Source: Deuterostichococcus epilithicus
Lineage: Eukaryota; Chlorophyta; Trebouxiophyceae; Prasiolales; Stichococcaceae
Assembly (NCBI GenBank): GCA_033439295.1
Contig: JAVTLE010000007.1
Coordinates: forward strand, 1,116,001 to 1,180,000
Direction: 5' to 3'
DNA: 64,000 nucleotides
In this document: in pieces, positions 10,048 to 47,500 of the stretch
Layout: each line of letters opens with the position of its first letter
Position numbering within the stretch: position 1 is the first letter of the stretch
Made by a program: the position numbers and the translations under genes
The notes under the pieces: model-generated
The model's database searches: none
What the model saw: only the letters and a program-made list of their open reading frames with translations
Told to the model about the DNA's origin: nothing

Positions 10048-12402
10048 ATGGGGGTGGACCTAGACAAATGGACAGAGAAAGTCAGACGCTGCGAGTACCT
10101 GGCAGAGGACGAGCTCAAGGCTCTGTGTGAATATGTGAGTATCCTTGGCTGCGCTCGAGCTGCACGGTCGCAGGCCTCTGTGCTGAGCATGTCTGAGGCT
10201 CATCTGCTACGCAACATTGCGCAGGTGAAGGAGATACTGGTGGAAGAGTCGAATGTGCAGCCCGTCAACAGCCCCGTGACGGTGCGCATGCCGCAACTCT
10301 CAGCATGTGCGCCCAGCCTGCTGCGTTCATGCCACCTGTGCAGTGCAAAATGCTGACGTCTGCATTCCCGGACGACGCAGGTGTGCGGCGACATCCACGG
10401 GCAGTTTCACGACTTGCTAAAGCTGCTAGAGACGGGCGGGCAGCTGCCGGAAAAGTCCTACATCTTCATGGGCGACTTTGTGGACCGGGGGTGAGCTTCC
10501 GATCGAACGAACAACGTGCAACTCAACCTGCAACTGTGATTGAGTTGGCTGCAGTGCTGCCCTCCGCACACTTTCTGTATTCTTGTGTGCGGGCACAGCA
10601 TCGTCAAACATACCAGGGTGCCGCACAGCGCGCGCAGGGTGATTATCTAGCTTCACACCAGACGTTTTTCCTGGTTCTGACTGCGCAGGTACAACAGCCT
10701 GGAGGTGTTCACGCTGCTGCTGCTGCTCAAGGCGCGGTACCCGGCGAACATGACGCTGCTGCGCGGGAACCACGAGAGCCGGCAGATCACACAGGTGGGT
10801 GCTTGCAGCCAGCCACATCAGACCCTCCCGTCCACAGCATGCTCACACGGCAGCCTCTGTGCTGGGCGTGGCCCTGCAATGAGCAGGCGGGCCCATGCTG
10901 TGCCTCACGAAGCGTCCTGCGCTGTGCAGGTGTATGGCTTCTATGACGAGTGCCAACGAAAGTACGGCAACGCCAATGCCTGGCGGTATTGCACAGAGGT
11001 GTTCGACTACCTCACGCTCTCGGTGAGTGTGCCCACCGCATGCGATATGCGGCCACCTGGCCTGGAGTCTTCTGCTCCTGTCCTTCGTGATGCGCATCGC
11101 TGATCGCTCTGTGACGTGCGGCGCCTCCGCCGGCGCACTTCTCCGTGCACAGCCACCCCCGCACCGTCACTGCATCGCCCGGCTCGGCCCGGCACCCTGC
11201 TCGCACACTGTGCGCATCCTCCAGGCACCAGCACACGTCTCGCGCCCGTCGTCGATCATGCTGTGCTCTTGTGCCCCGCTCCTGCAGGCGCTCATAGACG
11301 GCCGGGTGCTGTGCGTGCACGGCGGCCTGTCACCGGACCTGCGCACACTAGACCAGGTTCGTGGCAGACACCTGCTACGTGCCCTTGCGTGCTCGACGTC
11401 CCGCACCTCATCTGTTGTTTTAGCAGCTCCAAGATACAAACTATCGCTGGTGCACACCTCGAATGAGCGCTGGGCGAGCTCTGGAAGTAGGAAGCTCGAA
11501 TTCCTGGTATTGACGCTGCAGATACGGACAATTGAGCGGGTGTGCGAGATCCCGCACGAGGGACCCTTCTGCGACCTCATGTGGTCCGACCCCGAGGACA
11601 TCGACACCTGGTGGGTGTCTCCTGCCTCTGTGCACTGCTTCTTAGATCTCGGACTGTTGGAGCTGGAAAGCATGAGCGTGTGGCTGCCACTGCTCTGCAT
11701 GTGCGGGCAGGAGCCCGCTACCAGGTCAAGCACAACTTGTAGCACTTGGCAGGCAGGGACGTCGAACCCTGGCTTCACACGTGTCTTTCCAAATTGCACC
11801 CTCCCGATTGGCGCAGGGCCGTCAGCCCGCGGGGGGCGGGCTGGCTGTTTGGCGGCCGCGTGACGGCGGAGTTCAACCGCGTCAACGGGCTGGACCTGGT
11901 GGCGCGCGCGCACCAGCTGGTGCAGGAGGGCCTCAAGTACATGTTCGCCGACAAGAGCCTGGTCACCGTGTGGTCCGCGCCAAACTACTGCTACAGGTCA
12001 GTCTTTGGCCTGCGACGGCCACTCTCGACCTGCAGGCGCCCTTGCACGATTGCGCCTCCTCTTCAGCGCCTGTGCACTGCGTGCTGGCCTTTCTCGGCAA
12101 GCACGTGGGCAGCCTGGCGCACCGACACGGCGACAGCATGGCGGCACACTTCGGCCTCGGGCATGCCGCTGCAGGCGCTGCTGCGAGGGCTGCCCCCCCT
12201 CCTCAAGTCGCTTCCTTCCAAACGCTTCTAAGTCCTGACGGCTCAGAGTTCCAACAGCGTTACGCTGCCGCGCAGGTGTGGCAACGTGGCAAGCATCCTG
12301 TGCTTCGGCGACAGCCTGGAGCGCGAGGTGAAGTACTTCACGGAGACGGAGGAGAACAGCACCATGATGGCGCCTCGCAACGCCGTGCCCTACTTCCTCT
12401 GA
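10048..12402 (+). CDS. PPP6C: Serine/threonine protein phosphatase 6 catalytic subunit (FyPP-like)
   Basis: Nine exons: 10048-10134, 10225-10281, 10381-10490, 10689-10794, 10930-11022, 11288-11356, 11522-11610, 11817-11996, 12276-12402. They add up to 918 bases, or 305 residues, the family length. All PPP metal-site motifs are present: [32 protein letters not shown] and a late histidine in [36 protein letters not shown] and the methylatable C-terminal YFL end are also kept. [20 protein letters not shown] and [20 protein letters not shown] fit PP6/FyPP rather than PP2A or PP4. It removes phosphate from Ser/Thr in cytosol and nucleus with SAPS-type regulatory subunits. All introns are GT-AG. 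The ATG at 10048 gives the expected short N-terminus. Imperfect copies of the gene's last 40 bases follow the stop codon. Confidence 0.95.
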
Positions 12403-12550
12403 GAGAAGGTGGTCCTGCGCGGGGCGAAGATCAAGGGGCACCTTGCGACGCTGTGCCGTACTTGATCTGATCCGTCGCGGCGGGGCGGGGCGAGGCGAGG
12501 CAATGCTGCCATGGTGGCGCCCCGCGACGCCGTGGCCTAATTCCATCGAT
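12361..12550 (+). repeat. Three imperfect tandem copies of the PP6 gene end
   Basis: The last coding bases (12361-12402, encoding [10 protein letters not shown] and stop) are followed by two degraded copies at about 12430-12475 and 12506-12550. All three share a core like CACC/GCC-ATGNTGGCGCC-NCGCNACGC-GTG-CCTA and G-rich spacers. Copies 2 and 3 resemble each other also downstream of the core. The unit is about 75 bases. They lie in the 3' flank and are not expected to be translated. Confidence 0.7.
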
Positions 12551-13217
12551 CCTTTGGCGCGAGGCAGGGCGAGGGGCATTTTTGCCCGTGTCCGGCCAGC
12601 CCTCCTCTCAAGCGCGTCGCGCGCGGGGGGCCATGCGTGTAGCGGCATGCTGCCTTGCATCATGGTAGCAGATGAGCGGCGCGGCTGCAATTGCTGGCAG
12701 TTCGCTGGACTGGCAAGGACACTTGGCTGGAATAATGGCAAACACATTGTGTGAAGCGCATTTGGGAGCGCTTCAACCTAGATTGTAGGCAGTATGTTCT
12801 GTCCCGATCCCTGAGGCACACTCTCATCTAGTCCTTTGTCAGCCAGTCACGAAGTTTGGAGGTCCTTGTGCAAACCCCGTTGACTCCTGCTCGTGCTGAT
12901 AGCACCGCCCGCTCCTGCTGGTGTTTCCGAGGCAAGCGGGGCAGGAAGACTCCAGATTCGAACCATCATGCCTTCCGCGATTGTTGGCATGTAAAGACCT
13001 TGAACATGCAGCAAGCGTCCTTTGGTCAATGACGGCATGACATGTGCAAGTGGAATCGATCCTGCGGCGTGATCGCTCATCGCCTTGCAAGCACACTCAA
13101 GGATCAGTTGAACAGCGTGTCAGGCACTCCATTCCGCAAATCCACGGCCGCCTTGCAGAGCCAATCGGTCAGGGCAGGTGAATGTCAATCTGCGACGCAG
13201 GAAAGCCGAGCGCAGCT
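12403..13217. other. Tail-to-tail spacer between PP6 and leucyl aminopeptidase
   Basis: Both flanking genes end here, so this interval should contain two 3' untranslated regions. The first 150 bases hold the degraded PP6 tail copies. The rest has only short open frames without recognisable motifs. Confidence 0.4.
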
Positions 13218-16200
13218 TCACGATTGCCCCTCCAGAATGGCCCACTGCGCCAGCAGCGCTGCACCGTACCCGGTGGCGCCGCCCAGCTTGTCATCCCACG
13301 CCGTCCTGCCCAGCGGAAAGGAGCCATCAGGTCTATCCTGATACATGAGCGAAGTGCAGCCACAGGAAAGAATGTGCCAACAGGAATGCGTGCAGGCACC
13401 CAGGCCGCCAATTCTCACATCGAAAGATCGCCGTGAACACACACATTCCTCGTAACGATGGACAGCAATCCCAAGGCGCGAGCGGGTAGGACGCCATGCA
13501 CACAGTAGGACTCGAGCCTCGAGGGACGTGAGCGAGGGGGTGCCATTGAGCAGCGGCCGCACCCGGCGATGTCGATGTGCGCCCACTGCACCTTCTCGGT
13601 GTCCACGTACTGCTGCAGGAACAGCGCCGCCGTGATGCTGCCCGCATACTTGTTGCCCGCATTCTGCACCATACGAATTTGTTGCATCTCAAACAAGCAC
13701 CTGAGTCGAGTGGCATGCTCAGGAGGCGCCGAGCATGCGCCGCATCCCGTGCTGGCAGCGGATGCTGCCCCGAATGAGCTGGAGCTTGAAAAGCCATAAG
13801 AGTGACAACCTTTCATGACTCGCGAGGGCAACTCCAGGACTTCTTCAGACGGCGAACCTTCATGTCAGCGATCGGACTCTTCATGATGTCCCAGTAGGAG
13901 TCCTCCACAGGCATCCGCCACACCTTCTCGCCTGCAAGTCGCAAACCAGGGCGCGGCTGAGTTCAAGGTTCCTGCGCTCGCCCGATCATCCAGCAAGGCA
14001 GCGCGGGAGGCACCTTAATGCCCCAGACAGGCTGTGGTGCGCACCGACATGACTGGAGGCGGTCTTCAGCTTGTCGGCGAGGGCGTCGCTGGGAGTGAAG
14101 GCGCCAGCGATGCCCTGTCCCAAGGCGATCATCATCGCGCCCGTCTGCGCATCGACGACACATGGTATTGTAGCCATTTCGGCTGGCAGCGGCAGGCCAT
14201 GCTGCTGTCCAGCAAAGTGGAGAGTCAACAAGCGTGGCCGCTACTCCCAACTGCTCGAAGCTGTTCACAGCCTCCACAAACATGCCAATCCCCGCGGCTG
14301 CCTGGTCGGCGAGGGCACAGGAGCCAAGCGCACGGCGCAGCACAGGATGCATGCACGAAGTGGCACAGAAGCGGCGCGCCCGACGCACCAGAGTGGCGAT
14401 GTCGACGACGGCCTCCACCTTGGCGTGCTCCTGTGCGAACCACAGCCCGTCCGCCAGCGTGAGCCGCCCCTGCAAAAAGTGCACCAGCGCCAAGTCAACT
14501 TCAGTGATTCCTAGCTGAGTTGTGGTGTGAGGAGCATGTAGCGGAGGCAGCAGAGCGTCGCCACGCCGCTGTGCTACTGCCATTGCTCCGCATTGCATGG
14601 CTGCGAATGGCATGAAAGAACATAGCGAAATGCTCTGTGCAACTGCACTGAATAGACAGGTTGACAGCTGAAAGGGCAAATTTGAGAGAGATAAGCTGAA
14701 AGGCGATCGGACCAACCAGTCCAGCCTGATGACATGCAGTGAGCCAGCTTCTCGCGCCGCCTGTGAAGTTTCTTGAACTCTGACAGGAAGACAGCTGAAG
14801 GCACGAGCCGACAGGCGATTGCTGCCAGCTTTTCACATGATCCTTGCCGCACCTCAGCGTCAGTGTTATTGACCTCGACAGTCATGCCGTTAGCCGCCGT
14901 GAGCACATCGCCAGGCCGCGTCGCCCGCGCATCAATCATGTTCTCGCACGCCGCCACGATGAAGTGCATCTGCAGCAGCAGCAGAGCCCTGCGTCGAGTG
15001 TCAGTTGAACATAGGTGTGACAGTAAGCGCCTCGAGCGCAGGCGACGCAGGCCGTGCAGCAGTGGTATCCACGACGAAAGCCGGCATGCCCCGAGCGTCT
15101 GCAGGCGGCGGTGGCGGTAAGGGCAAAATGGACCCCACCTCCACGCCGGGAGGCTGCAGCGCTGCGAGGGCGCGTGCTGCTCCAAGGGTGGCGCCACTCC
15201 CACCCTGCAGCGCGACAAGCCTTCTTTTTTAAACTGTTCAGTGGTCCACTGCCGCCCCTAAGAGGGCGAGGGGCGGAGGGGGGGAGGGGGGTGTGTTGGT
15301 GGCGGTGTAACATAAGGCCACATGACTGCAGCAGCAGCATCCGAAACTCGAAACTGGGCACGGTAGAAACATCCGCACCATGTCAAACTTCATCATCTCG
15401 ATCATGGAGCCGGCACCAGCCTTGATGTTCAGGCCGCCGCAGTCGAAGGTGACGCCCTGCTCACAGCGAGCACCAGCGATCAGGCATGCTCACGTCAGGA
15501 GGAGAGCAGCAGCAGGCCATCCTCGCTGGCGTGCAGGCGGTCAAGGGGCGGTCAGCAGCGGTGTGCAGCTGTGGCAGGAGACGGGGCCGCCCGGGCAACA
15601 CACCTTTCCGACGACACCAATCCGCCGCTTCACCTCGCCTGCGCGTAAGAAATTCTCGAAGTCCTCAGTTTGCTTGTGCAGCAGCATGCAGATCCCGCCC
15701 ACAAGGGATGACAGGCGTCAGGCATGATGGCCAAAGCCCTGCAGGCGCACCTTTCGGCTTGTAGGTCAGGTGGATGAGGCGGAGGTCGTTGCCGCCCTCT
15801 GCCGTGGCCTGCACTGGTGCCACACAGTTCTCAACTAACGAAGATAACAAAGGAACGGTCGCTGTGGGCAGAAGCCCGCCGATCGAACAGCAAATTGCCA
15901 TGCTGTTGGTCCATTCTGATCTCCATTCTGGTCTCTTTCCTGGTCAAACTAGGCAGCGACATGCAACTGGGTCTTCGAGAATCCCAGGGCTCGGACCCAA
16001 CACTTGAGATCGAAGCAGGAGCGCACCTCGGCAACGCCCAGGTAGAGGCCCATGCCCAGCTTCTCCACGGCTGCCCGCTCGTGCACGTCCAGGTGGAAGC
16101 GCTCTGGCGCCAGCGCCGCGATGCGCGCTGCCGTGTCCGCCAGGTAGGCCGGCGTACAGATGTTGGCCGGCGTCTCCACAAGGTACCTGCCACGAAGCAA

Positions 16201-18625
16201 CGAGATTCGTGTGGTTTCATGTCGAGATTCTGTTGACTGGGAATCTGGTGCGGCGCACCGCCCGCCTGGTGCTGCGGCGTGCAGATGGTCTCTGCCGGAT
16301 ACATGTTCTGTTTGGGCAGACGGTCGATCTGGGGAAGAAAGCAGCAATTTGCAGCCCCATGAACGCGACATAACGAAGCCTAGAACTGCTGGAGTATTGG
16401 CCGGCGTGTCCACCAAGTCCCAGTTTGCGCTACGGTGCCGCCCCATGAGGAGGGCCCACCACGGACATGAGCCACCGCAGGCCCTCCCGCCGTCAGAGCC
16501 TGACGAAGCAGCCGCCCAAGGACTGGCCTTGACCGGCGGCATGCTGCAAGGCGCTGCTGTACCGCAGCGGTGCCTGCAGTCGCTGGCGGGCGCCGGCCGG
16601 CAGGGGCGTCGCAAAGAAGGGTTCCTGAGTTCCTGAGTTTCGTGCGACCAAGTCCCCGCACCCACCGTGTGAGCGTGGTGCCTGCAGCGAGGCCCGCAGC
16701 GGTCGCGATGGCGGCATGCGCCGCGTTCCTATCGCCGGCGGTCAGCACCTCTAAGCTCTCCAGGCGGCTGAGTGTCGGCTTGGCCTTGAAACGCGTCGCC
16801 TCGTAGGCCCCCGTCAGCATCCCCGCAGCCACCTTGCCCGCGGCCGCCGCCTGTCGGACGCGGGACACGGGAGGCTGTCTGTGTGCTGACTGAACACCCG
16901 TGCGTTGCCTCCGGCAAGCAGCCTCCTTCATGTGACACTGCCCTCTATGTGCCGCCACCCATGCGGTGGACGTTTGGAAATGGCAAACCCGAGCAGGTGC
17001 GCATTGCGCTTGCAGCTGGCTTCCAAGCAGCAGGCACAGGAAGCTGCCACAGCAGTGCAGAACGCCCGTGAGGTTGCATCCGAGCGCCACGCACCTTATC
17101 AGCGTCATTCGAGGCTGGAAGGCCCAGGAATGCGACCGCCGCCGTCTTAGCGCGCAGCCTCTTTGCGGTGGCGGCGATCGTCGCGCCGGCCGCCTGCACG
17201 GCCGCAAGTAGTGTGTTTGCTATCGCCGAGCCTGTCGAAGCTGCGCTGAAGGCTGTGCGGTGAGCCGGCACAGGCCTTCAGGTGGGGTGAGGCCTGCTGG
17301 TTGGCGAGTGTCGTACCACGCAGGCCACGGGAGCTCGTGGGACCCAAAACCTGCCCAGGATGCAACCCAGCGGCTGTATGCGCAACTGCTGTGCAGACGG
17401 CAGTGCGGAGGCGGAAACGCAACACTACCTGGAAGGGGGATGCGCCCCAGGTAGGCACCGCCTGCGCCTTTTTTGCCGGCCCCAGGCCGATGACTGCAAC
17501 GCTGCGCGCCTTGCCGCCAACGCGCGCCACCTCCGAGCTGCCCTGCGCAGGCCGGGCGCACATGCGGCCTCAGGTCGGCGGCCGCTGATGCGCACGAGGC
17601 GCCGCGGCCAGCCTCGCAGCCCTGCCGCCAGTTACGGTGCGCAGGTTCAGCCCGCTGCCGGCGTGAGCCTGGGCGCCCCTCAGTCGTGGGAACTCCGCCA
17701 GCCTTGCCCTTCCGCAGGCTGTGTGCTGGCGGCCTTGACGCTTCAGCATGCAAATGCACCATGCAATGTGCCGGTCACAGCAAGGCGCGCACCGCCTTGC
17801 CGGCAAACTCGTGGATCTGCACGAACTCGGTGACGATGCCACCCAGCGCCTCGTCCAGCGCCTTCAGTTCTGCGTCCTTGATCGACGGCGAGTCGCCTGC
17901 GCGATGTACAAGCAAGGAGCGAGAGTTTATGCTGCGCCGCGACCATGTCGAGGGCCCTTGATGGACGGCGAGTCGCTTGCGCGACATCCATGCAGAAAGC
18001 GAGAGTTCATGCTGCGCCACGACCATGTCGAGGGTGCCGTCACACGAGGCGCGGACGCCGAAGACAGGGCTGAAAATGCAGCAGAATGTCTATGGTGTGC
18101 ACGGGCCGGCGCCTGATGCGGCGCAGCCCATGGGGCTTCGCATGCCGGCATGGGCCGCCGGCGGTCCCGTCCCACAATCCAGGAAGAGCACCCCTGCTCC
18201 GAGGACTCTCGATGGATTGGGACATCGACTGCGGGGCGCACCGATGGTGTCGAATGCCTCCTCTGGCACGGCCAGAACCAGCAGATCGCCGCTCCAGTCC
18301 TGCGGCGCTGATGTCGCCGGCAACACCGCCGCGACCTTCTCAGGCTCCCAAACCTGCATGTACAGGCGCACTCATTGAGAGTGTCATGGTCATGCGCACA
18401 TGCAGCTGCCAGTGGCAACAGATGAGGTCGCAGAACAGACGGCATTCATGTTGCTTGGGACACGCGGAACTTTTGACAAATGCGTCCAGGTGACTGACGA
18501 GCAAGATGCAGTTGTGCGGGCGAACTCACGAGCTCTTTGTTGCCCACGGTGGGCGTAGTGCCTGTCGCGCTCATGACGACCACAGACAGGCCACGCGCTG
18601 CAGACCGGGACCCTGCGTGTTGCAT
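13218..18625 (-). CDS. LAP: Leucyl aminopeptidase (M17, cytosol aminopeptidase family)
   Basis: Eighteen exons (minus): 18530-18625, 18242-18353, 17793-17896, 17636-17668, 17459-17542, 17096-17194, 16666-16850, 16027-16186, 15751-15808, 15604-15638, 15379-15456, 15139-15204, 14853-14969, 14389-14469, 14045-14144, 13858-13931, 13563-13663, 13218-13305. Phases agree throughout and give 556 residues. M17 landmarks in order: [54 protein letters not shown], metal/active-site [50 protein letters not shown]. The enzyme removes N-terminal residues from peptides with two bound divalent metals, usually as a hexamer in the cytosol or plastid. The N-terminus ([13 protein letters not shown]) is short but basic; another in-frame ATG at 18679 would lengthen it, so plastid import is open. 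Exons of 33 and 35 bases occur. Two introns contain copies of the next exon's start. Confidence 0.92.
16160..16421 (-). repeat. Degraded copy of an exon start inside the preceding LAP intron
   Basis: The exon beginning at 16186 reads TACCTTGTGGAGACGCCGGC (YLVETPAN). At 16394-16421, inside the intron upstream, lies ACTTGGTGGACACGCCGGCC (LVDTPAN) followed by similar bases. The intronic copy has no good AG acceptor in front, so it is probably not spliced in. It looks like an old local duplication. Confidence 0.6.
17884..18034 (-). repeat. 79-bp tandem duplication across a 3' splice site of the LAP gene
   Basis: Copy 1 (17884-17955) and copy 2 (17963-18034) have a period of 79 bases and roughly 85-90 percent identity by eye, with shared blocks GACGGCGAGTCGC, GCGAGAGTT, ATGCTGCGCC and GACCATGTCGAGGG. 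Copy 1 holds the acceptor and first bases of the exon 17793-17896. Copy 2 lies wholly in the intron and has a changed acceptor region (GCGCAAGCGAC against GCGCAGGCGAC). Confidence 0.8.
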
Positions 18626-19886: not shown

Positions 19887-22800
19887 TCACTTATACTTGC
19901 GGTTGGCTGCGCGGGTGCCTGCATAGTGACAGAGCGTTGTGGGGCAGGCAGCCGAAAGGCAGCTGCTCACAGGGCTCGCTGCTGTGATGTATGGTTTGTG
20001 TACCTATGCAGATTCGGGAATCTGCCAAGACACACCTGGGCAAAGCAGCCCAGCACCCTGGTGGCTTGGCCACATGCACAGACAACCCCTGGTTATGAAA
20101 AACCGAGACAACAAGGAGACGGCAATGCTTGCGTTGCGGGGAGGAGGCAGCTGCGCACCGGTGACGGTGCGAGTGGTGTACCGGCGGCCGCCGGCGCTGC
20201 GCGGGTTGACGGTCAGGTTGTCCTGCAGCTGCAGCAGGATCTCCGCCACCTCGTTGAATTCCTCTCCGTCCTCCCCCTGCGGCACAGCAGGGTTTAGGGT
20301 TTGGGAGTCAAGGTTTCAAGTGGCTTAATTGAACTCCTCGCCGTCCTCGCCCTGCAGCGGCACAGAGTGGGGCAGGGCATCTAGGGTTTAGAGACAACAG
20401 AACGACGGCCCCAGCCGTGCGTCACCGGATGCCGGCATGTGGGAGGCATGGCTCGGTGCAAGCTCAAAGGACTCGAATATTGCACATCACCAGCTTCTGA
20501 TCCGGGAGGACTGCCTGCAGAGAGCCGAATCTGCTCCCTGCCCAATATCCAGGCAGCGATGAAGAGGGTACCTGCATGGCGGCGGGCTGCGACTCGTCAA
20601 TGTCCATGCCGCCAAACAGCTCCTCGTCCATCTCGCCGCTGTCGCCACTCAGCGAGGAGCTGCTGGCCTGCACCTTCATTGCTGCGCCGTTCGCCCTGCG
20701 GCAGCGCGTAGCCGGTGGGTCAGGCAGGCTGCTTCATCGCCCTTGCAGCAGCTGATGGCTTTGCATGGTGATCATGGCGGCTGCCGGGAAACCCACTGCA
20801 CTCCAGACGTGCAACTTTAGAAGACCCATGCAATGGCTAAAGTCACTTATTAAGTGGCAATGGCTGAAGTCACTTATTAAGTGGCAATATTGAGCCCTCA
20901 CCTGGCCGCCTCCCCGTTGACTGCCTTTGCCGCCCCGTCGTTCATCGCCGCGGCCGCGNCCAGCGAGCCAATGGCCGCCTCGCGGCCGCGNNANNNCGCC
21001 GGCGGCGCCACGAAGAAAGCCGCCGGCGCGGAGCCAGCCACAAAGCCGCGGCCGGCCCGGCCGCCGCCATAATGGTGGTCCTCCAAGTCTGTGGCGACAT
21101 CTGAGCCCGCCTCCGAGGCCGGCTGAAAGTGCTGGAAGGCATTGCCTGCCGCCGGCATCGACCCTGCACCATGGCAGGTATCAGGGTGAGATCATCAAAC
21201 ACATCGTCCCTACTAGTGACAAGCAGCCAGCTGCAACGCTCCCGGATGAACATCTTACAGGAACTCCGCGGAGTCTTACAGGGACCCGCTTTCCATGCCA
21301 TTCAGGGCTATGATGCCTGTGGTCCCTCGGCTTGGCAGTAGCTCAACATGCCAGCTGGCTCAGGTACCTGGGATGGTCGTCGCCGCACTAGCGCCGCCGC
21401 TATGCAGCGGCTGCGGCGGTGGACGGCCGTCATCAGGAAAGTTGCACACAGCGCTGGCGCCGCGGATACGGCGTGCCGCAGCGTCATACGCTCGAGCCGC
21501 CTCCTCGGCCGTGTCAAAGGTGCCCAGCCACAGACGCGCGCCCTGCATACACAGGGACCCCTGACGTCAAGTACTTGTTTGATTGATGTACCAAAGTTTC
21601 AGGACCTCTACGGATGAACTGCTTGCAGCTGGGATGACTTCCAGACATGGCATCACAGACGCACAAGATGTGGATCCATCCAGTCTGCAGGACCTGCAGG
21701 CTCCATAGGCATTATTGTAAAAGTTAGCGGCCTGCCTTAGTGGGGTCCCTGATCTCGGCGGCGAACTTGCCCCATGGGCGCTGCCGCACGCCACGGTAGC
21801 GGCTGTTGCCGGTGCCAGAGCCGGCAGCGCCTTGCGAGGGCCGGCCGCGGCCGCGGCACGCACGCGGCCGCAGCGCCGCCGGGCGAGCGCTTGGTCACGC
21901 CCGGCTGGCTGGCGCGGCGCAGGCTGTTGCTGCCGCCCGGCTTGAGCAGCGAGCTGGACAGCGAGGACCTGCATTGCAGCAGCAATGCTTGCTGCAGGCG
22001 GCGTTGATGACGGTGCAGCAGGAGTGGTGCTGCTGCTTTATCAATGCTATTCGGCTGCTGGCACTCAGCGTGTGCGTGCAGCAAAGGTGGTTGCAACTGA
22101 CTCTGCTAAGGCCAATGCATTCATCCCTCAGCAGACGCNGNCCNTCTGGGGGGGGACAACTGCAGAGGCATGGGTGGCTCATCAAAAGGGAAGGCACAGA
22201 AACGCGACTGAAGCAGTCGCGACTCACTTGGGATGGTGGTTGTCCGGCAAGGAGCCGGCGTTGAGACCCGTGAGGCTGGAAGCGGCGGAGGCGGCGCCAG
22301 AGGCGTCTGTCCGCGTCGCAGCAGCGGCACCTGTGCTCGACAGCGCTAACGGCGCAATGTCCAGCGCCGGCGTCGACGACGCTGGCCCGCCAAAGCTGCT
22401 CGACAGGGCGCCTGCACATAGGCTTCACGTCAGCCTCCCATGACTCATGCAGGCAGAAGCCTTGAGTTTCCGCGTATTGTATCAGTCCAAATTGGCCTCG
22501 TTTCTGCACAACTTTCGGCAGGCTTCGCTGCGATTGCTCACCTGAGAAGCCGCCGGGCACGGAGCTGCCTGCTGGCGGCGTTGAGGCGCCGCCAAAGCTG
22601 GCGCCGGCGCCCATGATGACGGATNAGGACCGCGGCGGGGCGCGCGGCGGCAGCGCTGGACCCTGCCAACCGCCCAGGCATGCCAAGTCAGGACTTGGTG
22701 CACAACAGAGGGAGAGGGGAAGGGGGGCGTTGTCAAGGTTGAGCCGCACATCAAGGTCAACAAAGCTGGCAGGAGCGATTACTGCAGCGTCAACTCACCG

Positions 22801-32700: not shown

Positions 32701-35231
32701 CGGAACTTTAGGGTTCAGTGCTTGTGGCGTGTTTTGTGCAGTGCCCCCCCCCCNTTGCAGTTTCCCTTTTTGGCGGGCGTCATTGCCCCGTGGGCCGTAC
32801 ACAGCTGAGCCGGCTGCGCTGCCTTGAGATGCGGAGATCGAACGTAGAGATCCAGCAGCGCTCTGAGGCACCGCCTGCACTGTGGCAGTCTTATGCCGCC
32901 ATGGCGGCAGCTTGTCGGCGCCGCATGCATGCTTGCTGAGCGCTGCTGTTTTGGTGCCGTGCAGAGGCTGGCAAACCATGATTTAGTGTGTCAGTGAGGA
33001 GCGGGTCTGAAGTCGGCCAGCGACCCAAACGATCCAACGCAGTACGCTCCGGCGCAGCACTTGCTCTCTGACCGCAGACAGCACAGGGCTGGGTGCGCAG
33101 CTGGAGCGGGAGGAGACATGCGGCGGGCGCTGGAGACAACTGCTCGCACCCTAGGCCGCTGCTATGCACAATGGCACTTGGACCTGACATGAACTGGGCC
33201 CACCGCCACTGCAGAAAATCGCCGAACTGGAGGCGCAGCTGGAGCGGCAGGACGTGCGTGGCAGCGCGCTGCGGGCGGCCATCGCCAAGCTGGAGGACTA
33301 TGCTGCCGGCGCCACAGGGAAGGCGGAGGAGGCGGACGCGGACCTGCTGTCCCTGGACCGGGAGCTCACCATCCTGAAGGCCAACGTGAGCTGGGGTTTA
33401 GGGTTTGTTTTAGGGTGTAGAGCTCCACGATGACGCTCTCCTGCTGTTGATCAGGCTCCTGCAGCAAGTGCTCGCTGCTGCTGCCCCGGACCGGGTGCTC
33501 GCCTCCTTCGTGGCCACCCTGAGCTCGAGCAGCGCCCTCGCCGTCGAGCTCCTGTCCGCCGCCCCCGTGCTGCTGCTTGTGCGTGACCGCCTCAGAAGCA
33601 AGGTCGGCCAGAGGATGTAGTGAGCAGCTCGCTTGCGGCAGCTCGGCATGGTTTCTGCCTGCTGCTACCTGAACGCCACACACAAGGAGTCGATCGAGTG
33701 TCTTTATCAAGCAGGTTTCTTGAGGGCCTCCGCGGGCAAGCAGCGGTGTGCAATTCGACTTTGTGTCACTTACCGTAGTTCACGGCAGACGACGGAGACC
33801 ATGTGCTGGAGCTGCGCCGGCTGCTGGCCGTGGCTGCTGACACCTACAACAGCCTCGTGGAGCAGGTGCGATCACCCCTGCAGCAAGCACGATGACGCAA
33901 ACCAAGTCCAACACCTCGCCATCCTGCAGACTGTCTTGTGCGGCGTCTTAGCCGCCTGCTGGGGGCGGCACATCTGCACACGCACAGGCGGCGGCAAAGG
34001 GTGTCACCCCTGCGGGGCAGCCCTGCCCATCCTCGGGCGTGGGTGTCCCAGCCGCCTCAAGGATGAGTTGACTGCACCGCAGGCGACGGCAGCGGGGGTG
34101 ACGCTGCCGGCAGATGCGCAGACGCATGTGCCGCCGCCAGACCTGCGCCTGGAGTGGGACAATCGTGCGGCGGCGCTCGCCGCCGACTGGCACGACTTTG
34201 AGGACGAGGGTGCGTCTGCGCCTCTCCCTGCTCTTTTTCGTGTGCTCGTTTTGCTTCTTAGAGTTTTCGTTCATCTTTGGGAGATCATCCTGTCTGCGTG
34301 CGTAACGTAGCAATGCTGAGCCGATCCACTTTAAGAAAGACCTGCAATAGCTGGCAGGTTGAAGGGTTCAGGCTAGTAGGCCGTACAACATGGACACCTG
34401 CCGAGACCGCGTCGCAGGCTTGACCTGGCATGGCACCGTCACAGTGCACCATTTGTTCCACGACCTCTGCGGCATGCGTTGTGCCTATCCGACCACCACA
34501 ACCCTCCATCCCCAAATCGCAGGCTTCACCGTCGTCACTGCCACCGAGGAGTACAGTAAAGCTGCCGCAGCCGCCGCTGCAAAAAAGTCCATCGAGGACG
34601 CCGCTGCGGCGCGCGCGGCCGCCGAGGCGGAGGCGGCGGCTGCCGAGGAGGCAGCGGCCGCAGCGGCGATGGACGCCGCAGCTGCCGAGGCGGAGGGGGC
34701 GGGCTCGGACGCGGAGTCGACGGGCACGCACCACGAGGCACAGGTGCTGATGGCTTGCATCGGCGGCATCCTTGCTCCCGGCGGCACGAGTGCCCCGGTG
34801 GCACGAGTGTCGCGACGACGCTCACTTCGGCACCTGGCGTTGCTGTCTCAGCTGGCCAGAATGGCTGTGAGAGACTTGCTGGGCAATTAAATAGAGTGGT
34901 GCGCAGTCTCTTGGCGGGCTCACCCTCCAAGTGCGCGGGACTCGAGACCCTTCACTGGACTGCCCCCCGGGACTGCCTGCAGGACATGGAGGGGACGAGC
35001 CCCGCAGCGGCCGCCGCCGCTGGCGACGCCGAAGTGGACATGCTGGGCATGGACGACGAGCAGGAGGCCGATGCGGTGGCCGCCGTCAGCCCCTCGGCCT
35101 CGGCTGCCGCCGGCCCGCCCGCCAACGGGCACGCCAACGGCGGCGTTTCGCTGCTCGACGGCTTCGGCCAGCAGCCCTCCTTCAGCGAGGGCTCTGTCTT
35201 CTTCAACAAGCAGGCCTTTGGCGGCAATTAG
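29763..35231 (+). CDS. EH-domain endocytic protein, AtEH1/Pan1-like (TPLATE-complex type)
   Basis: Fifteen exons: 29763-29903, 30006-30089, 30208-30336, 30486-30626, 30821-30967, 31182-31271, 31453-31674, 31922-32026, 32234-32356, 32562-32690, 33215-33385, 33779-33865, 34083-34209, 34523-34743, 34983-35231. They total 2166 bases, or 721 residues, with matching phases. Two EH domains come first: residues about 1-115, with EF-hand-like loop DRDGDGRVHGGE, and about 130-250, with DTDRDGYVL, GQLDARQFISCVYLM and GLKLPPALPSKNFP. A long coiled-coil region follows (KKLELQTRLEALQKDLAQL, KIAELEAQLERQD, ELRRLLAVAADTYNSLVEQ), then an Ala/Glu-rich and acidic tail ending FNKQAFGGN. Such proteins bind NPF motifs and lipids and build clathrin-coated pits at the plasma membrane. 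The protein carries an NPF of its own in the first EH domain (GNNPFLSK). The intron after 32026 has a GC donor. Confidence 0.9.
32660..32869 (+). repeat. Copy of an EH-gene exon end in the following intron
   Basis: Exon 32562-32690 ends GAGAATGCGGAGATCCAGCA and so on. At 32825-32869, inside the next intron, stands GAGATGCGGAGATCGAACGT followed by AGAGATCCAGCAGCGCTCTGAGG. The intronic copy has a small internal insertion and no GT at the matching place. Confidence 0.6.
33095..33258 (+). repeat. Copy of an EH-gene exon start in the preceding intron
   Basis: The exon from 33215 contains GCGCAGCTGGAGCGGCAGGA at 33233. The same intron's tail carries GCGCAGCTGGAGCGGGAGGA at 33095, followed by a similar CATGCGG/CGTGCG block. 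Both would encode a coiled-coil peptide of the type AQLERQE. Confidence 0.65.
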
Positions 35232-38500: not shown

Positions 38501-41500
38501 GCTGCAGCTGGGCATGCAGCTGGGCCTCAATCTGCTTGGCAACCGCTGGGCCCTGGTCCCCGACATCACGCTAGCCTCCTACCGGTGTGTGCTGACCAGC
38601 TGCTAATCGTTTGATAGCCCCCTCCAGGAGCACTGCTGCATAGTTCGGTTGCAACCTGCCGGGGGTGCTGCAATCATGCAGCCTCCATACGAAATTTCGG
38701 CCGAGAGGAAGCGAATGTGTCCAACAAATGAAGAGGCCTACCTACAGATGGCAATGTGAGGCAGTCAACCACTCTCCCGTCATTCTCGAATGAGCTTGAA
38801 GCCCCCTTGCTTTGCTCCAGGGGCTCAAACCTGCGCCATGAGACAACGGAGGAGGTGGATCGGCGCTACGCGCGGATGCCGGCCAGCCTGGCGACGGCGC
38901 TGCTGCCGTTCCAGCGGCAGGGGGTGCGCTACGCCATCGTGCGGCGGGGCCGATGCCTCATCGCAGACGAGATGGGCGTTGGCAAGACGCTGCAGGCCAT
39001 CGCCTTTGCTTCCTGCTACCAGGTGGGCCGTCATGCCCCAGGGTGCCCTGTCGCAGCCACCCAGTAGGATAGGAAGCATCGTGGCATGTATTGCCAGGGG
39101 CTGGCCGCTCTAGGAAGACGGCGGATGGTGCAGGCTGGGGTGCTGGCTTCGAAGCCGGTGCAACAGAGCCGCGCAGCGACGGCCGCCCATCTCAAGCCTC
39201 AGCTGTGCCCCTGTGCATGACAACTGTTGTCCGTACGTTCCGCCGCGACAGGAGGAGTGGCCGGCGCTGATCGTGGTGCCGGCGGCGATGCGGCTGGTGT
39301 GGGCGGAGGAGCTGGAGCGCTGGCTGCCGGCGCTGCGCCCCGCCCACATCCACATCATCGAGTCCAAGGCCGACCGCCTGCAGGTGCCCGGCCCACACCC
39401 GCTGCAGCCTGCTACTGGCCATGCCAGAGACGAACTTTTGGTCGATCCACGCGCCAGGTTGGGAAAGTCACTCCCTTCAGGATGGCGTTGCAGAGCTTGA
39501 GAGTTGCCCCTGCAGCAGCAGGATAGGGTTGCGTATGTGAAATCGCCCCCCCCTTTGGTTGATTTTTGTCACGAATGCAGGGCACGGAGGAGCTGCCGCG
39601 GGTGGTGGTCACCAGCTACGACATGCTGCACCGCCTGACCTGCGAGCCCTGCAAGACCGGCAACATGGCTGCCTGCACCGGGCGCCTGGTGCGCTGCTGG
39701 ATAGCTCGACTCCTAAACCCTAGATACCGTCTGTGATCGAAGGTGCCATGCTGAGACAGCAGCCACACCTCGTGGACCGCCAGGGCTGCTGCACAACTGC
39801 CTTCGATCTGTCTGGAGCGCTGAGTTGGCGACCTTGACTTCCAGCTGCGGCAGGCTGGATAGCGCTGACGGCACTGGGAGGCGCGGGCCAAAGATGTCCG
39901 CCCGCCCTGCCCGGCAGTCGCATCTCGCAGTCCTCGAGCGTTGAAGTGCTGCGCCGGCTCATCGCAGCACTGCATGGCGGCGATGGGCTGGCAGGTGCTG
40001 GTGGCCGACGAGAGCCACACGCTGCGCACCAGCAGGCGGCCCCCGGACGCACAGCACACAGAGGCGCTCGCGGCGGCGGCACGCCGCGCCACCCGGGCGG
40101 TCTTCCTCAGCGGCACGCCGTCGCTCAATCGCCCCTTCGATCTTTTCCGCCAGGTCCGGCCATGCTGGTTTCGCAAGCGTCACCAGCTTGTGTTGAGGGG
40201 GCCTGTCCAGTCTTGCTGCATCCAGGCCAGCCACAATCGCTTAGGATTGACCACCGCCTGCCTTTCCGGAGCCCGCCGACTGGTCGCTGGGCAAAATGCT
40301 ACCTCGTTTCAACGTCCAGTCTCTAGCGCAACGTCCAGTCTCTGGTCTCCGGTCTAAGCCGTGGTCTGAAAAAGGACAGGGAGCGGCTCGAGCTCTGACA
40401 CAGGATGCCTGGATTGCTTCTGCTCAGGTGGACCTGCTGCGGGAGGGGCTGCTGGGTGCGACGCGAGACGACTTCGCGCACCGCTACTGCGGGCGGCGGC
40501 TGGTGCCGGCGCGCGGAGCCCGCGGCGCCGCCGGCGGCCGCTACTACGACGACTCGGGCCTCTCGCGCGGCCAGGAACTGCACGGCCTCCTGAAGCAGGC
40601 GAGAATTTGTCATCAAACGGAGCCGAAACTCACGAGGAAAGCACCACAACCACATATGTGCCCTTCGTGCCTCTTGAATGCTCTTCGCCATGTCTCGCAC
40701 TGCCCTTCATAAACAAGCGGACGGGCCCAGTATCCAGATCATGTTGTTGGCTGTGCCTGGGTGTGCTCGCCTGCTGCGCCTTCAGCTTTGCAGAAGGCTC
40801 ACCAGAGCACTCCGCCTCCCTGCTGTGTTGTAATTCCTGTCCCCGTGTTGTGCACGTGGAGGAGGGTTCACAGGGCCGGCCCGCCTGCAGGAGGTGATGC
40901 TGCGGCGGCTGAAGCGGGAGGTGATGGCGCAGCTGCCCGCCAAGCGGCGCCAGGTGGTGCGCCTGCCGCGGCCCCAACCCTCCGACTGGCCCGCCACCGG
41001 TGAGCTCCCTCTCGACACCCAAACCTGCGACTGGCCCGCCTGCCGGCGCCTGCACTCCTTTTGGTGGGGGCCTCAGCACCGGCTGCGCTGTTGAGCGCAC
41101 TCCCAAGCTGGCAGTGCCACAGAGCTCGCGACGCGTGGGCGTCGGCGCAAGCTTGGGAGCGATGTGTGAAGGCTGTCCGGGTTGGCTTCACGCCAGGGCA
41201 AGCAAGCGTCTGGGTCCGATCTTCGGCGCCATGTCTGCTGGCCACCATGGCTGCGGGCATTTGGCTGCAGGAATGGCGTCCTGGATCAGCTCTCGTATGA
41301 ATGGCGATCACAACGCAAGGGCCCCTGTGTGCATGTCACTCCCGATGGTGATATACGCGGCCTGTTGAGAGTAACACTTAGGGTCGTCAAGTTGCAGTAT
41401 CGCCCAATGGTGATGCATACTCCCAATCCCCACAGCCGGCTTGGGCTCAAAGGTATGTTTCTGCGCTGCTCAGAGGTGCCCAGCGATGAGGAGGCATCAG

Positions 41501-44500
41501 ACAGCGATGAGGGCGGCGGCGGCGAAAGGGCCGCAGCCGCTGCCGGCGGGGCCGCAGCAGCTGCGGCGGCGGCCGCAAGACTCGCTGGCGCTGCTTCCGC
41601 CGCCCCTGCCACCTGCTGGCCGCTGCGGCAGCGCACCGGCATGAGCCGCGACCACCGCACGGGCCTGGCCAAGATCCCCAGCGTCGTGGAGTGGCTGCTG
41701 CTGGCGCTGGGGCTGGGCAAGACCACCCAGGCGGCGTGGCCTGCGCGGTGACTGCCTTCTCAGGCCTGCTGCTGGGCATCTGTGCTATGACTGGTGCCGA
41801 GACCGCACGCCAATTCTGGCACAAGGCCACAGCCGGCCCCTGGCTGTGTGTGCTGAGTCCTTGTGTAAAAGCTGTTGTGGGTTGCCCTGATAGAGACCCG
41901 CCTGCTGCGCCATGTTGGGAGGCTCACCTGCTGCTCCACATCAGGAGCTGTCCTATATTGCATTGATGCAGCCAAGGCTGTGCCTCTTATTCGGACGTTC
42001 CACAATCCCAGGGGCCACGGCAGCAGCAGCGAGCAGGCTGGCGAAGAAGGCGGCGACGGCGCATCGGCTGCCGCATCAGACGGGACGCCCCCAAAAGTTC
42101 TGGTGTTCGCCCACCACAAGTGCGAGCCCTGCACCCTCCACTCCAGCGCTGGATGCACATATCTGACAGCATTGCTGTAAGGCTTGATAAGAAGCAGTCA
42201 CTCCTTGCAGTGTGATCTTCGTAGCGGCAATGCTGAGTAGTAAGGCGACGACGCAGATGACCGCTTGACTCCAGAAGCTTGGCTGCACTAACCAATGACG
42301 AGGCTTGCCAACACCCTATGAAAACAACACAGGTGATCATCAGCGCAACTTCGTTCTCTCCTGGCTTGAATCCAGATGTGAGGGTCGTGGCTGCAGGGGA
42401 CCTGATGACGAAGGTCTTGAGACAACAGTGATACTGCCTCACCGCAGCCCTCATCCGGGTCATGGTTTGGATTCGAGCTGCCCACGCCTGTTCTGCAGGG
42501 ATGTGATGACGAAGCTGGCAGGGACCCTGGAGGAGTGCAATGGCGGCGCTGGCGTCCCCTTCATCCGCATCGACGGCGCCACCGACAGCCGCGACCGGCT
42601 GCTGGTACGATTGTGACCCGCCTGTGTTCCTGCATCTGTGGTGATTGAGCGTTGTTATGGCAGGCATGGTGAGGATTTGTAGATGCAGATGTGCACAGGC
42701 CTCTGTTTCGTCCTGCTGCTGCGTTTACAGGATAGCTGCCTGCGCTACTCCTTTCCAGACTAGCGGCTGATTCCGTCTGTCGCATCTGTGGCAGATGACG
42801 CAGCGCTTCAAGAACGAGCCAGCGCTGCGGGTAGCGCTGCTCAGCGTCACTGCCGCCGGCACCGGTCTCGACTTTTCCGCCGCCAGCCTCGTCGTCTTTG
42901 CCGAGCTGCCCAGCGAGGTGCCGCACATGATTCAGTCCTGGCAATAAAACTCAATCTCGCGTTGCCCTGATGCCCCGTGCACTGCCGCCGCATCCGATGC
43001 CGCTTCCACCGCGCTTGCCTGACGAAGATTGCACACAGCAGCTCGCCATGGATGTGCGTCCGAAGCCCGTTATCCACGTGTGCAGCCCAGTATGCACACG
43101 AGATGTCCAACTCTCGAGCGAGCCTTGAAAGGTTGTTGCCATCATCTCGAGCTATGCATCGTGCCGTTGGACGCAGTGTTGTCAGTGTTGTCAGGCACTG
43201 CGCACATGTTGAAATTGATGCGCCGTGCACAGGGCGCGGTGGTGCGGCAGGCGGAGGACCGCGCGCACCGGAAGGGGCAGCAGCTGCCCGTCAACGTCTA
43301 CTTCCTGTGCGCCAAGGGCACCTCTGACGACCGCCGGTGCGCCTGCCGCTGCCAGTGTTGAGGGGATTGGCATGCAAAACTGTTCAAGTGTGGCAGCGTC
43401 TGAACTCCCGCTGCAAGGTCACGCAACCGCTCCGAGCCTGCCAGCCCCAAGTGCAGACAACACACCCAATTTGTTTGTCTAGCAGCTTGCAATCAGGTCC
43501 AGCGTGCTGCCGTGTATCATCACTCTACAGGAGCTTGCAGCTGCAGGCTCCTGTTTGTGGCGGTGCCCGGCACGCACTCTGGGCCCTCTTTGCCGGCGGC
43601 TGTAGTGCCTCCAAAGCATTTGGAAGCACGCATTCTGAATCAGGAGTGAAGCCTCTGCAACAATGCAACGATGCCTCCCCTACAGTCCTAGTTCTCTGAC
43701 CAGCGAACCTGCTATTGGTGATCCGCTGCTGCAAGGTGTCAGCTGCATCAGCTTGTTCCACTGGGGGCGCCCGGTCTGGCATGAGCGCTGCACATCCCCA
43801 CGCTGTTCTCGCCAGGTGGGAGGCGCTGAATCGCAGCCTGCAGCGGGTGGACGTGGTGCATGACAACCGTGCGGGCACTGGCGCCGGCCTCCCCCTCGAC
43901 AGGGTGACCTTCAGATTATGTCCACTCGTGCTGGCATCGGGCACTCTCGTAGGACGTGGTCAGGCGCTGCAAGTTTGCAGAGGCATGTGCGACTCTGAGG
44001 TTATCTGTATGCATGCCGTCCTGAGCGTGCTGAACGCCCAAACACGCGCCTTTCCCACACATCCAGTAGTCGGAATAGTGAGTTCTCGCACACCTCACAC
44101 CAACGCACATTCATTCTGTTACGAAGGTGCTGGACATGCAGCGGGACCGCCGCACCGGTAATCTGCGGCCCTCCAGGCCGCTGCTGCCTTCGCAGTTGTC
44201 ACCGGCGTTCAAAACGGAAGTGCGCGCCGCTACCGCGGCCACAGGCGGCGTGGCTCCCGGCGATGCAGCAGCAGCCATCCCCAGCCCTGCCGCAGCTGCT
44301 GCCTCCCAGCAGGATGCTGAGCTGCCTCGGGCGGTGGACGAGGCAACACCCGCGGCAGAAGGCATCCCACCGGTCGCGGTTGAGGGTAAGCCGGACGGCA
44401 GCGACGACCAGCCACAAACCCAAAATCACAGCTCTCAGGTGCCAGGCCTGGCCGTCCAGGCCGGTGACGCACCTGTCAGTCCGGCGGCTATGTCGCCGAT

Positions 44501-47500
44501 GCTGGCAGGCATGCAGCTCAGCGTCACACAGCCCCTCGGCCGCCTGCCGGGCAGCCAGACGTCGCCGAGCCAGTCGCAGGCAGGCACGCGGCCAGGCAGC
44601 CAGCCGCAGCTGGACGTTTTTACGTCCAAGCGCAGCCAGCAGCAGGGCAGTCAGCCGCGCCGCAGCCAGCCGCCGGCGTCCCCGTCGGTCATCGACCTGG
44701 CCAGCGACAGCGACGGCGATGAGGACATGACGCCGACAGGGCATACGGAAGCCCAGGTCACCCAGCTGCTTCCTGCTTCCCCATCCCAGCTGCTGGACTC
44801 CCCGCGGCCCGCGCCACCTGCAGCAAGCAAGGCAGCCCAGGCCTCGCAGTCGCCACCGGCTGCCGGCAGGCACCCGGGGCCGGCTGTGGCGGACCCAGGC
44901 AGCCCCGCAGCTGGGGCCGCTCAGGCTGCCAAAGTCAAAGTGCAGCAGCCAGCTGCGGCCAACGTCGCGCCAGGCGGCCAGGCATCGGCCGGCGCTGAGG
45001 CGGCGGCAACTGAAGGCGAGGGAGCTGCTGCGGCTGCTGCTGTGGCAGATGGCACCGCAGTCGATGCTGCAGCCGCCGCTGTGGCTGAGGAGGCGCTAGA
45101 GCCGGGCATATGGTTCGAGGTGCGAGTCGCCAGATGCCTCTTCAGCTGAATTGCAGTTGTCTGCAGCATCAGCTGCAAGCTTTCGCTCGCATGAGCCAAT
45201 TTTATGTGACCTCACAGTCCATCCTCATCACCTGCAGTACACGCTCGTCTAGCACACTGTGCTCTCCAGGGCATCCAAATTCTGCCCTGCAGGTGTCGGC
45301 ACACACCACCCGAGTTCACTTGCATGGCACGGCCGACGGCAGCCGGCCGCTGGGCGCCAGCTTGCCGCTGGAGGCGCTGCTGCCGGCCTGCCAGCCGTCT
45401 GCCGCCGCCGCCACGCTGCTCGCCGCCGCAGAGGCCAGGTGGGCCGCAACAGCGGGCACTGCACCTGACCTCGCAGCATAGCTGTGCGCACCCCTGAGGT
45501 TTCTCCAGCAAAGCGTTCCCTCATCCGCGCCCTCAGTGGCAGCTCCCTGCTGTGTCAGCCCACACCGTCGGGCAATCAAACACTGGCAAAGTCGCACCAA
45601 GCACCGCTGTGTGAAACCGCACGCGGTGTCTGGCAACCTGCTGAGAGGCCTCATGTACTTCCTCAACCTCCCCGCGTCTCTATGCAGGGAGCGCGGCGCC
45701 CAGCCGGAGGCCAGCGGTGCCTTTGCGCTGGACCCATCAGTGGGCCCTGAGCGGCTGCGCGTCATCCTGGCGGCCGCCTGCGAGTTTGCCGCCGAGTGGG
45801 CGGAGCTGCGCTCGGTGTTCCAGAGCCGCCTGTACGGCTGCGTGCTGCGGTGAGTGGGTATGACGCAGGGGCCCTGCCCAGCAAGGCCTGCCCATTAACG
45901 CTGCTCCACGCTGGCGTAATAGAGGGCACAGCTCGAAGTGCGTCGCAGCTATCTGGGGATCTCCACCCCAGGTGGGTCGTGGATGGATACGTGCATAACA
46001 CCGCAACCCGATGTGCTCGTGGGAGGGGCAGCACGTTTGCAGGCAACGGAGGTGGGCTGCAATCGGCCGCACATCAAGCTGACTGCAAGGGATGCGAGAC
46101 GCCTGGTCGTCCAGCGGAGCTCCCTCCTCCGCCGCAGGACCCCGCTGCAGGAGGAGGTACACCGGCTGATGGCGCAGGCGGNNGCGGCNGGCGNACTTGT
46201 CGTCGGGACCGACCGCTACGCCTCCGGGCCGCCCGCGTCGGCGCTGCCGCCCGGCGCCGTGCTGCGCCCCGTCCGCGTGTCCTACCCCAGGCACGGACAG
46301 AGAAGCCCCTGCTGCCTGTACAGCTGGCATGCCATCGACCCATCCTCGCCGCAACTATGTGACAAACCATCCTGCCCATGCTTGCTCAGCTGCCGGCTGC
46401 GCAGTCACTCTGCTTCGAGCGGGCTGCCCTCCAACAAACATGTGTATGTCGAGCAGACCCTGAGCCAACCCTGTGAGCAGGCTGCGCAAGGAGGTCGAGT
46501 ACCAGCAGGCGTTCAGCGCCGCGGGGGCGCGGCTGTGCCTGGTGTGCCTGGCGCCGGTGGCAGAGTGCGCCCACCCGCCCGACGCCGTGCTGCGTGGCGG
46601 CATGGACCTCTTCTGCGGGTGCGCTGCTCGCTGTATGCCAATAGTGTGCCTGGAATGAATTCAGAAGCTCGTGGACATCTTCCGCGGGTGTGCTGCTTGC
46701 TCTCTCCCAACGGGGTGCCTGGAATGAGTCCAGAAGCGCTTGCTGCTGCCCTGCTTGACGCACAGTCGTCTTGACCGTACAGTCGTCAAACCTCATTTGG
46801 CAAAACTGAGCTCTTCACAGCGCCTGGTGGAGTCAAGGCCATACACAGCATGACAAACGGATTGGCACAACAGTCATGCTTCTTCACTTTGACCGGCTCT
46901 GCCGCAGGCCTGTGCAGACAGGGCAAGGTCCGAATGTGCGTCGCAGGCTGGACTGCGAGAGCAAGTACGGACTGGCGCGAGGCGGCGGCGCGATCCGGCG
47001 GGCGCTCTTCAAGCTGGAGCGGGGGGTGTGCGTCAAGTGCGGCGTCGACTGCCACGAGCTGACGCAGCGGGTGCAGGGCATAGAGAAGGGCAGCCGCGGG
47101 TGGGAGGACCGCCGTCGCGGCCTCATCACCCGCCTCGCGCCCCGGTGAGTCTGAATTTTAGGCTCGCAGACAGTTGAAACGTGCTGTCTGCGCGCTGTAA
47201 CTCCTGATCCGGGCTCCGATCCAATTCCTGAGACCTTGCATTTCATGGTGCGGCAGCACGGAAATGCCAAATCACACTTGCAGTGTGCTCCAGGCAGAAA
47301 ACACAACAGTCTGGCGCTGTGCTCCAATCGTGCGGCGATGCGAAGCCTGGTTCACGGGCTTGCTGTGGACCGGTATGGCAACCAGCAGCAGGAGTAGAAA
47401 GCATGATGCACACGGCACCTTTTGTGGTGAGTCGGACGCGCGTGCCGCAGCTTTGGCGAGCGGGGCTACAAGGCGCTACTGGAGCGGCTCGTCAGGGCAG

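Follow-up and report, generated by a model that had tools for sequence, protein, structure and literature searches.

The 64,000-nucleotide stretch of the Deuterostichococcus epilithicus genome analysed here (contig JAVTLE010000007.1, positions 1,116,001 to 1,180,000; hereafter the window, GC content 62%) holds five genes in which short pieces at exon edges are found a second time in the neighbouring intron or flank. The predicted proteins of the window include an M17 peptidase (LAP) and carry AP2, EH, SNF2 and HNH domains, the AP2 match being barely above the cut-off, and the PP6 prediction is a complete frame of 305 amino acids with a match to PF00149. A reading of the window made from its letters (the sequence-only reading) had listed eight such blocks in the PP6, LAP, AP2, EH and ZRANB3-like genes. 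All eight were located (Table 1), and five of them passed the main filter, a gapped local alignment score of at least 36 together with a trinucleotide entropy of at least 0.8. The three weaker blocks are those at 33089, which scores 37 yet is absent from the entropy-filtered list, at 33344 (score 34) and at 16163 (score 15.0 on one scale and about 30 on the other).

The genome sampled comprises 46.8 Mb in 21 contigs, and duplications were counted in up to 323 kb in total, with smaller counts made on 244 kb (the window and 18 stretches) or 284 kb. Exon edges are the predictions of a gene finder trained on the sampled DNA itself, without RNA support. A second run on the 323 kb gave 704 exons and 636 introns with a median intron length of 234 bp. 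Protein relatives agree with the predicted models of LAP and EH. The gene finder also merged adjoining genes and labelled certain intron copies as exons, such as the EH segment 33465-33578, which relatives contradict. The relatives compared were proteins and transcript-derived sequences only; the best relatives of LAP include proteins from Myrmecia, Parachlorella, Micractinium and Chlorella (52-61% identical), which fits a trebouxiophyte-like green alga.

The counts confirmed that local duplications occur across the sampled genome, far above chance. The main filter retained 37 pairs in 244 kb, seven of them in the window. When each stretch was compared with DNA 1, 2, 3 or 4 kb away, 2, 0, 0 and 0 pairs were found, and 10 local dinucleotide shuffles gave a mean of 0.0; the estimate of chance rests on these controls. 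Further offsets of 1500 and 3000 bases gave 3 and 9 pairs, the latter probably contaminated, as loci of 3.1 kb wrap onto themselves. With a distance of up to 1500 bp allowed between copies, the full 323 kb contained 53 pairs; the distance was below 300 bp in 46 of these and between 300 and 500 bp in none. The independent local duplications within 300 bp number 42, mostly with copies at a distance of 45-155 bp, and 30 of these touch an exon edge (a count tallied by hand from the table of pairs, with four manually added pairs taken out).

The 284 kb held 35 independent pairs, and 24 of these had an exon edge inside a copy, against 13.3 ± 2.7 under random placement, a level reached in 0 of 2000 placements. 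Probes gave a similar picture. Copies of an exon's last or first 40 bp were present in the adjoining intron at 8/558 and 16/551 edges (24/1109 together), and probes taken deeper in the exon were copied progressively less often: 15/997 at 21-60 bp, 3/873 at 41-80 bp, 0/711 at 61-100 bp and 0/568 at 81-120 bp. Probes of the adjacent intron (positions 6-46) were copied at 6/1185 edges (2/584 and 4/601, with about 0.9 expected by chance in each), and probes further into the intron at 3, 5, 2 and 3 of 558-585. The sequence-only reading had proposed a comparison of exon edges with random positions as its check, and the raw counts do exceed random placement. The excess can nonetheless be accounted for by decay and selection acting on an old cohort of duplications, with an age K of about 0.2 or more; younger or evenly spread ages do not account for it.

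The edge cases were examined as a set of 34, made up of 30 independent pairs and four added by hand; 18 lie at 3′ splice sites, 15 at 5′ splice sites and one at the PP6 stop. The alignment extends at most 8 bp into the intron in 25 of the 34, and the two copies are separated by a gap of at least 20 bp in 30 cases and of less than 20 bp in four. Complete head-to-tail units, which include 42-100 bp of intron, are present in 4/34, and residual likeness on the intron side was seen in a few further cases (PP6, AP2 20276, L021 3348 and L027). Otherwise the homology that a tandem unit would have on the intron side is mostly lost, as it is in simulated old duplications. At 10/34 edges, a third match scored above 99% of controls, several of them in steps of about 100-115 bp, and some of these may be due to chance. 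The blocks stand at different stages of decay, as had been proposed for the window.

Mismatches between exon and intron copies amounted to 58/444, 57/450 and 89/438 at codon positions 1, 2 and 3 (13%, 13% and 20%). Mismatches that are even over positions 1 and 2 and higher at position 3 are what a neutrally changing intron copy would give, together with an exon that accepts mainly synonymous change. Frame-shifting insertions or deletions (indels) are present in a number of intron copies.

The reading that we favour, with a probability of roughly 0.77, is that the blocks are the remains of ordinary small tandem duplications placed at random and then sorted by decay and selection. Such duplications, with a unit of mostly 45-155 bp, would fall at random over the genome, and they presumably arise by fill-in at staggered double-strand breaks. 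Where a unit crosses an exon edge, one exon copy would stay coding and under selection, and the other would become intron or 3′ flank and drift. The two intron copies would both drift, their likeness would be lost first, and with age only the exon end and the splice-site consensus would stay recognisably double. The apparent stop of the blocks at the splice site, and their apparent preference for exon edges, would follow from this earlier loss of likeness between intron copies. The outcome for the gene would be a longer intron with a decoy splice site, and we infer that splicing ignores the intron copy.

Simulations of random tandem duplication followed by decay were compared with the 30 observed pairs scoring at least 36. 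The best of 16 settings had K = 0.2 substitutions per site and lineage, 0.3 indels per substitution (mean 10 bp) and strongly constrained exons. It gave an overhang of at most 8 bp in 65% of pairs (70% observed), a gap of at least 20 bp in 87% (87%), an identity of 0.827 (0.833), a length of 46 (47) and an indel ratio of 0.095 (0.098). Under random placement, the ratio of edge cases to purely noncoding ones was 499 : 107 at K 0.2 and 436 : 61 at K 0.25, and 26 : 3 was observed for pairs 45-170 bp apart. In a test of intron homology, the mean of -2 ln p per pair was 6.01, 6.53 and 5.46 in three simulated sets and 5.88 in 28 observed pairs. The modelled old cohort thus largely reproduces both the preference for edges and the stop at the splice site, and given that age an ordinary process would suffice.

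Several observations weigh against random duplication followed by decay. The fit requires a cohort of similar, old age, and since the rates and the indel length were chosen from a small grid, it is no proof. Ages drawn evenly from zero upwards (K 0 to 0.3 or 0.6) yielded long and complete units, with a median length of 71-83 against 47 observed, and about equal numbers of edge and intron-only cases (789 : 780); K 0.15 (877 : 470) and K 0.1-0.3 (556 : 291) also yielded too many intron-only cases. Even the best fit differs from the data in places. The 90th percentile of the score is 80 in the data and 72 in the best fit; intron-side scores have an observed mean of 2.5 against 3.2-3.6 in simulations, and they are at most 2 in 68% of cases against 51-55%. 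Almost no intron-side likeness was left in 5 of the 6 pairs scoring at least 60, against 65-75% of simulated ones. Duplications confined to exons make up 2/31 of those observed and 179/830 of those simulated, a deficit that we ascribe to selection. Young duplications are scarcer than a constant rate would give, a shortage that the proposed explanation does not account for. The same holds for locus L012, a 10 kb stretch with six edge duplications between 1987 and 8738, one of them slightly below the threshold, in a gene that we take from its sequence to be kinase-like. Differences in four of the six copies number 6/146 at codon positions 1 and 2 together and 19/71 at position 3, a third-position bias for which neutral decay of the intron copy offers no explanation; the other two copies lack it (10/54 and 4/26).

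A different mechanism would be anchored at the edge itself: breaks or template switches at splice junctions would copy a block that reaches from the exon interior to about position +5 of the splice site to a place some 100 bp away. The stop of 25/34 blocks within 8 bp of the junction, the fall of the probe counts with exon depth and their low level in the adjacent intron, the third matches in regular steps and the rejection of a steady-state decay model all speak for such anchoring. The junction stop, the gaps and most of the apparent loss of intron homology are, on the other hand, obtained from an old decaying cohort without any anchoring, and the four complete cases, which reach 42-100 bp into the intron, suggest that ends on the intron side are random. 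We regard edge anchoring as unlikely. In its extended form, exon edges would be preferred sites of local duplication in this lineage: breaks at splice junctions would copy the exon end with its consensus again and again, at intervals of about 105 bp, and introns would lengthen outward from their exons. This form is given an equally small chance. Early simulations, with ages starting from zero and mild constraint, had rejected decay and favoured edge anchoring; strong constraint with a fixed older age gave the fit described above. A per-pair test against tandem origin (28 pairs; Fisher p of 1e-12 at 0.2 indels per substitution and 2.5e-7 at 0.5) was set aside as biased, because simulated tandem duplications taken through the same steps gave similar values. 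The spacer between the copies did not resemble the intron-side flank (mean percentile 0.57, 4/30 above 0.95) or the exon interior (mean percentile 0.51, 3/30 above 0.95).

The sequence-only reading had pointed to duplication of exon pieces as a route to new introns and shifting splice sites. On this account the duplicated piece would supply the AG and GT sites, and the stretch between the copies would become a new intron, a process documented elsewhere (PMC4974935; PMC3443670). The gene models do not bear this out. In all 29 cases measurable by gene model, a distance of 69-883 bp separates the intron copy from the splice site at the other end of the intron, and an intron running from copy to copy, flush with both splice sites, was found in none of the 29. 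Host introns have a median length of 427 bp, compared with 234 bp for all introns and 107 bp for the duplicated unit, and they are longer than the other introns of their predicted genes, the median excess being 160 bp (n = 29). This pattern suggests that tandem duplication lengthened introns that were already present and did not give rise to new ones.

The remaining four of 33 intron cases (L020 1346, L022 5674, L011 8823 and EH 33385) could not be measured, as the gene model calls both copies exonic, which would suit intron birth; only EH 33385 was checked further. There the extra predicted exon is absent from two relatives and looks like a gene-finder error. The transcript-derived MMETSP protein P0003 continues with V after LKSN, consistent with a retained intron, and the transcript thus appears to keep an intron at the same place. 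The EH duplication (K about 0.14) would be far younger than the divergence from the P0003 protein. Of five algal proteins aligned with LAP, all match the YLVETPAN join without a gap and three do so at the GDSPSIK join, the other two (P0021 and P0035) having one or two extra residues beside it; sequence like the intron copies was found in none of the five. Intron birth is considered very unlikely. The best single candidate for a young duplication that changes splicing is a 25 bp block in L020, 100% identical at 1248-1272 and 1335-1359, located at a predicted exon end and inside the following predicted exon, with a predicted intron of 48 bp separating the copies.

Retention of the intron copies for a function, for example as decoy or alternative splice sites, would be compatible with the GT or AG kept in 20/25 aligned copies, where about 17 are expected from the square of the mean identity of 0.83. 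The evenness of change over codon positions 1 and 2 and the frame-shifting indels argue against it, and we consider this explanation very improbable.

A mobile or introner-like family would explain why several unrelated genes are affected, and its likelihood is close to nil. Six queries at five loci returned no genomic match beyond their own locus and their own second copy, in a search that skips very common words; the blocks are unrelated between genes, as the sequence-only reading had judged. Because the tested units are single-copy, such a family is unlikely, and for the five loci it is refuted at the sensitivity of that search. No homology to other places in the genome was found for a spacer of L012 or for the flanks of L022 and L031. 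At the five tested loci the unit is not repeated elsewhere, as in small tandem duplications, and many similar intron copies across genes, as in introners, were not found.

Table 1. Duplicated blocks and other repeats in the window (positions counted from its first nucleotide).
Feature	Position	Strand	Support
Source copy at the coding end of PP6, in its last exon (12276-12402)	12362..12397	+	PP6 frame, PF00149
PP6 3′ flank, decayed middle copy, steps of about 74 bp	12437..12470	+	
PP6 end, second copy in 3′ flank, 86% identical	12509..12544	+	
Complete tandem unit at LAP exon start (exon 17793-17896), taking in 58 bp of intron, period 80 bp	17876..17954	-	edge backed by protein alignment
LAP tandem copy, entirely intronic, 86% identical, acceptor CAG changed to CAAG	17956..18034	-	
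LAP exon start (exon 16027-16186), source copy	16163..16187	-	protein alignment
LAP decayed intron copy, 234 bp away, under main threshold	16397..16421	-	
AP2 gene exon start (exon 20159-20276) with 11 bp of intron, source copy	20254..20287	-	
AP2 gene intron copy, 75 bp period, residual intron homology adjoining	20329..20365	-	
EH gene, start of exon 33215-33385, source copy	33227..33252	+	EH domain
EH gene upstream intron copy, 138 bp away, low complexity, weak	33089..33114	+	
Source copy in the EH gene, covering the end of exon 33215-33385 and its 5′ splice site	33344..33392	+	
EH gene intron copy, 134 bp away, part of exon 33465-33578 in the gene finder	33478..33525	+	
ZRANB3-like gene, end of exon 40891-40999, source copy	40973..40995	+	SNF2/Helicase_C
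ZRANB3-like gene intron copy, 45 bp away	41018..41040	+	
Complete tandem unit in the ZRANB3-like gene, end of exon 46481-46618 and 50 bp of intron, period 69 bp	46603..46668	+	HNH in same predicted protein
ZRANB3-like gene tandem copy, entirely intronic, 82% identical, donor GT kept	46672..46737	+	
Young intron-only tandem repeat, 27 bp period, 97%, away from any edge	20830..20888	.	
Telomere-type motif sites	6104, 7429, 20289, 20382, 32707, 33394, 39712, 50809		

The introns of this genome have other features of their own. All 30 sites of telomere-type motifs (9-mers of TTTAGGG) in the 323 kb fall in predicted introns, although merged gene models may have turned some intergenic sites into intronic ones; the reversed motif has 2 sites. 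A 5′ splice site is no more than 30 nucleotides away at ten of the 30 (3.9 expected), and a 3′ splice site no more than 40 nucleotides away at nine (5.1 expected). Each of these nine has the C-rich strand in the transcript. At a guess, CCCTAAACCCTG may act as a branch site plus pyrimidine tract. Among loci chosen by the motif alone, 8/10 have it equally near a splice site. A TTTAGGG array is present at the start of contig C1, and near the start of contig C11 the motif recurs every 2.2-2.3 kb (G000:C11:1181-19601), which suggests a subtelomeric repeat array. The motifs were also considered as scars of breaks, since 5/25 ten-mers lie within 100 bp of the span of an edge duplication (0.92 expected). 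Two of the five are in one duplicated unit, however, two were noticed before testing, and the clustering of the motifs at intron ends can explain the overlap; the idea was rejected. Ten extra loci (12 kb) held four duplications, three of them at or within 9 bp of a predicted edge. A density of 42 per 323 kb would give about 1.6, and the result is not decisive. GC donors normally account for about 1% of introns. The 68/636 predicted introns with GC in place of GT are unusually many, and gene-finder artefacts are possible among them.

The phenomenon is real and essentially ordinary. An ordinary type of mutation can mimic a process specific to exon edges, because duplications that straddle an edge outlast others when selection holds one copy. 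The 29 intron-edge cases scoring at least 36 among 636 predicted introns give a rough figure for the lengthening of introns by small tandem duplication in a compact algal genome, and they call for caution in surveys of intron gain that rely on direct repeats between exon and intron. The shortage of young duplications, if confirmed, would mean that the rate of duplication has changed.

Among the open-access papers listed by a literature search, none was seen to report exon-edge copies in the introns of green algae. Small tandem duplications have been attributed to fill-in at staggered double-strand breaks, with CST/Pol alpha as the mechanism given (Schimmel et al. 2021, PMC8355091). They share with the algal blocks the form of short head-to-tail direct repeats, and are described there as the commonest short (<100 bp) insertions in the human genome. 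The algal cases differ in that most are old copies in decay, some at exon edges and others elsewhere, and the pathway is assigned to them by analogy. The direct repeats near splice sites described by Rogers and Bendich (2025, PMC11782384) are likewise close to exon-intron borders. Those repeats are 4-30 bp long (mean 11.4) and lie around both borders of an intron, whereas the algal ones are longer and pair an exon end with the interior of the adjoining intron. Introners (PMC9860276) are also an intron-changing process known in green algae, among others, but they form repeated families, and the algal units tested are single-copy. Tandem duplication as a route of intron gain has been reviewed (PMC3443670). 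A parallel in position is the intron gain in the potato RdRp gene (PMC4974935), where the duplicated segment likewise spans the 3′ splice site of an intron that was already there. That duplication produced a new intron with RNA support, whereas in the alga the existing intron seems only to have been lengthened. The same paper describes an 83 bp tandem duplication within an intron that left the gene structure unchanged. By this analogy, the algal blocks are probably a quieter outcome of the same kind of mutation as the potato intron gain.

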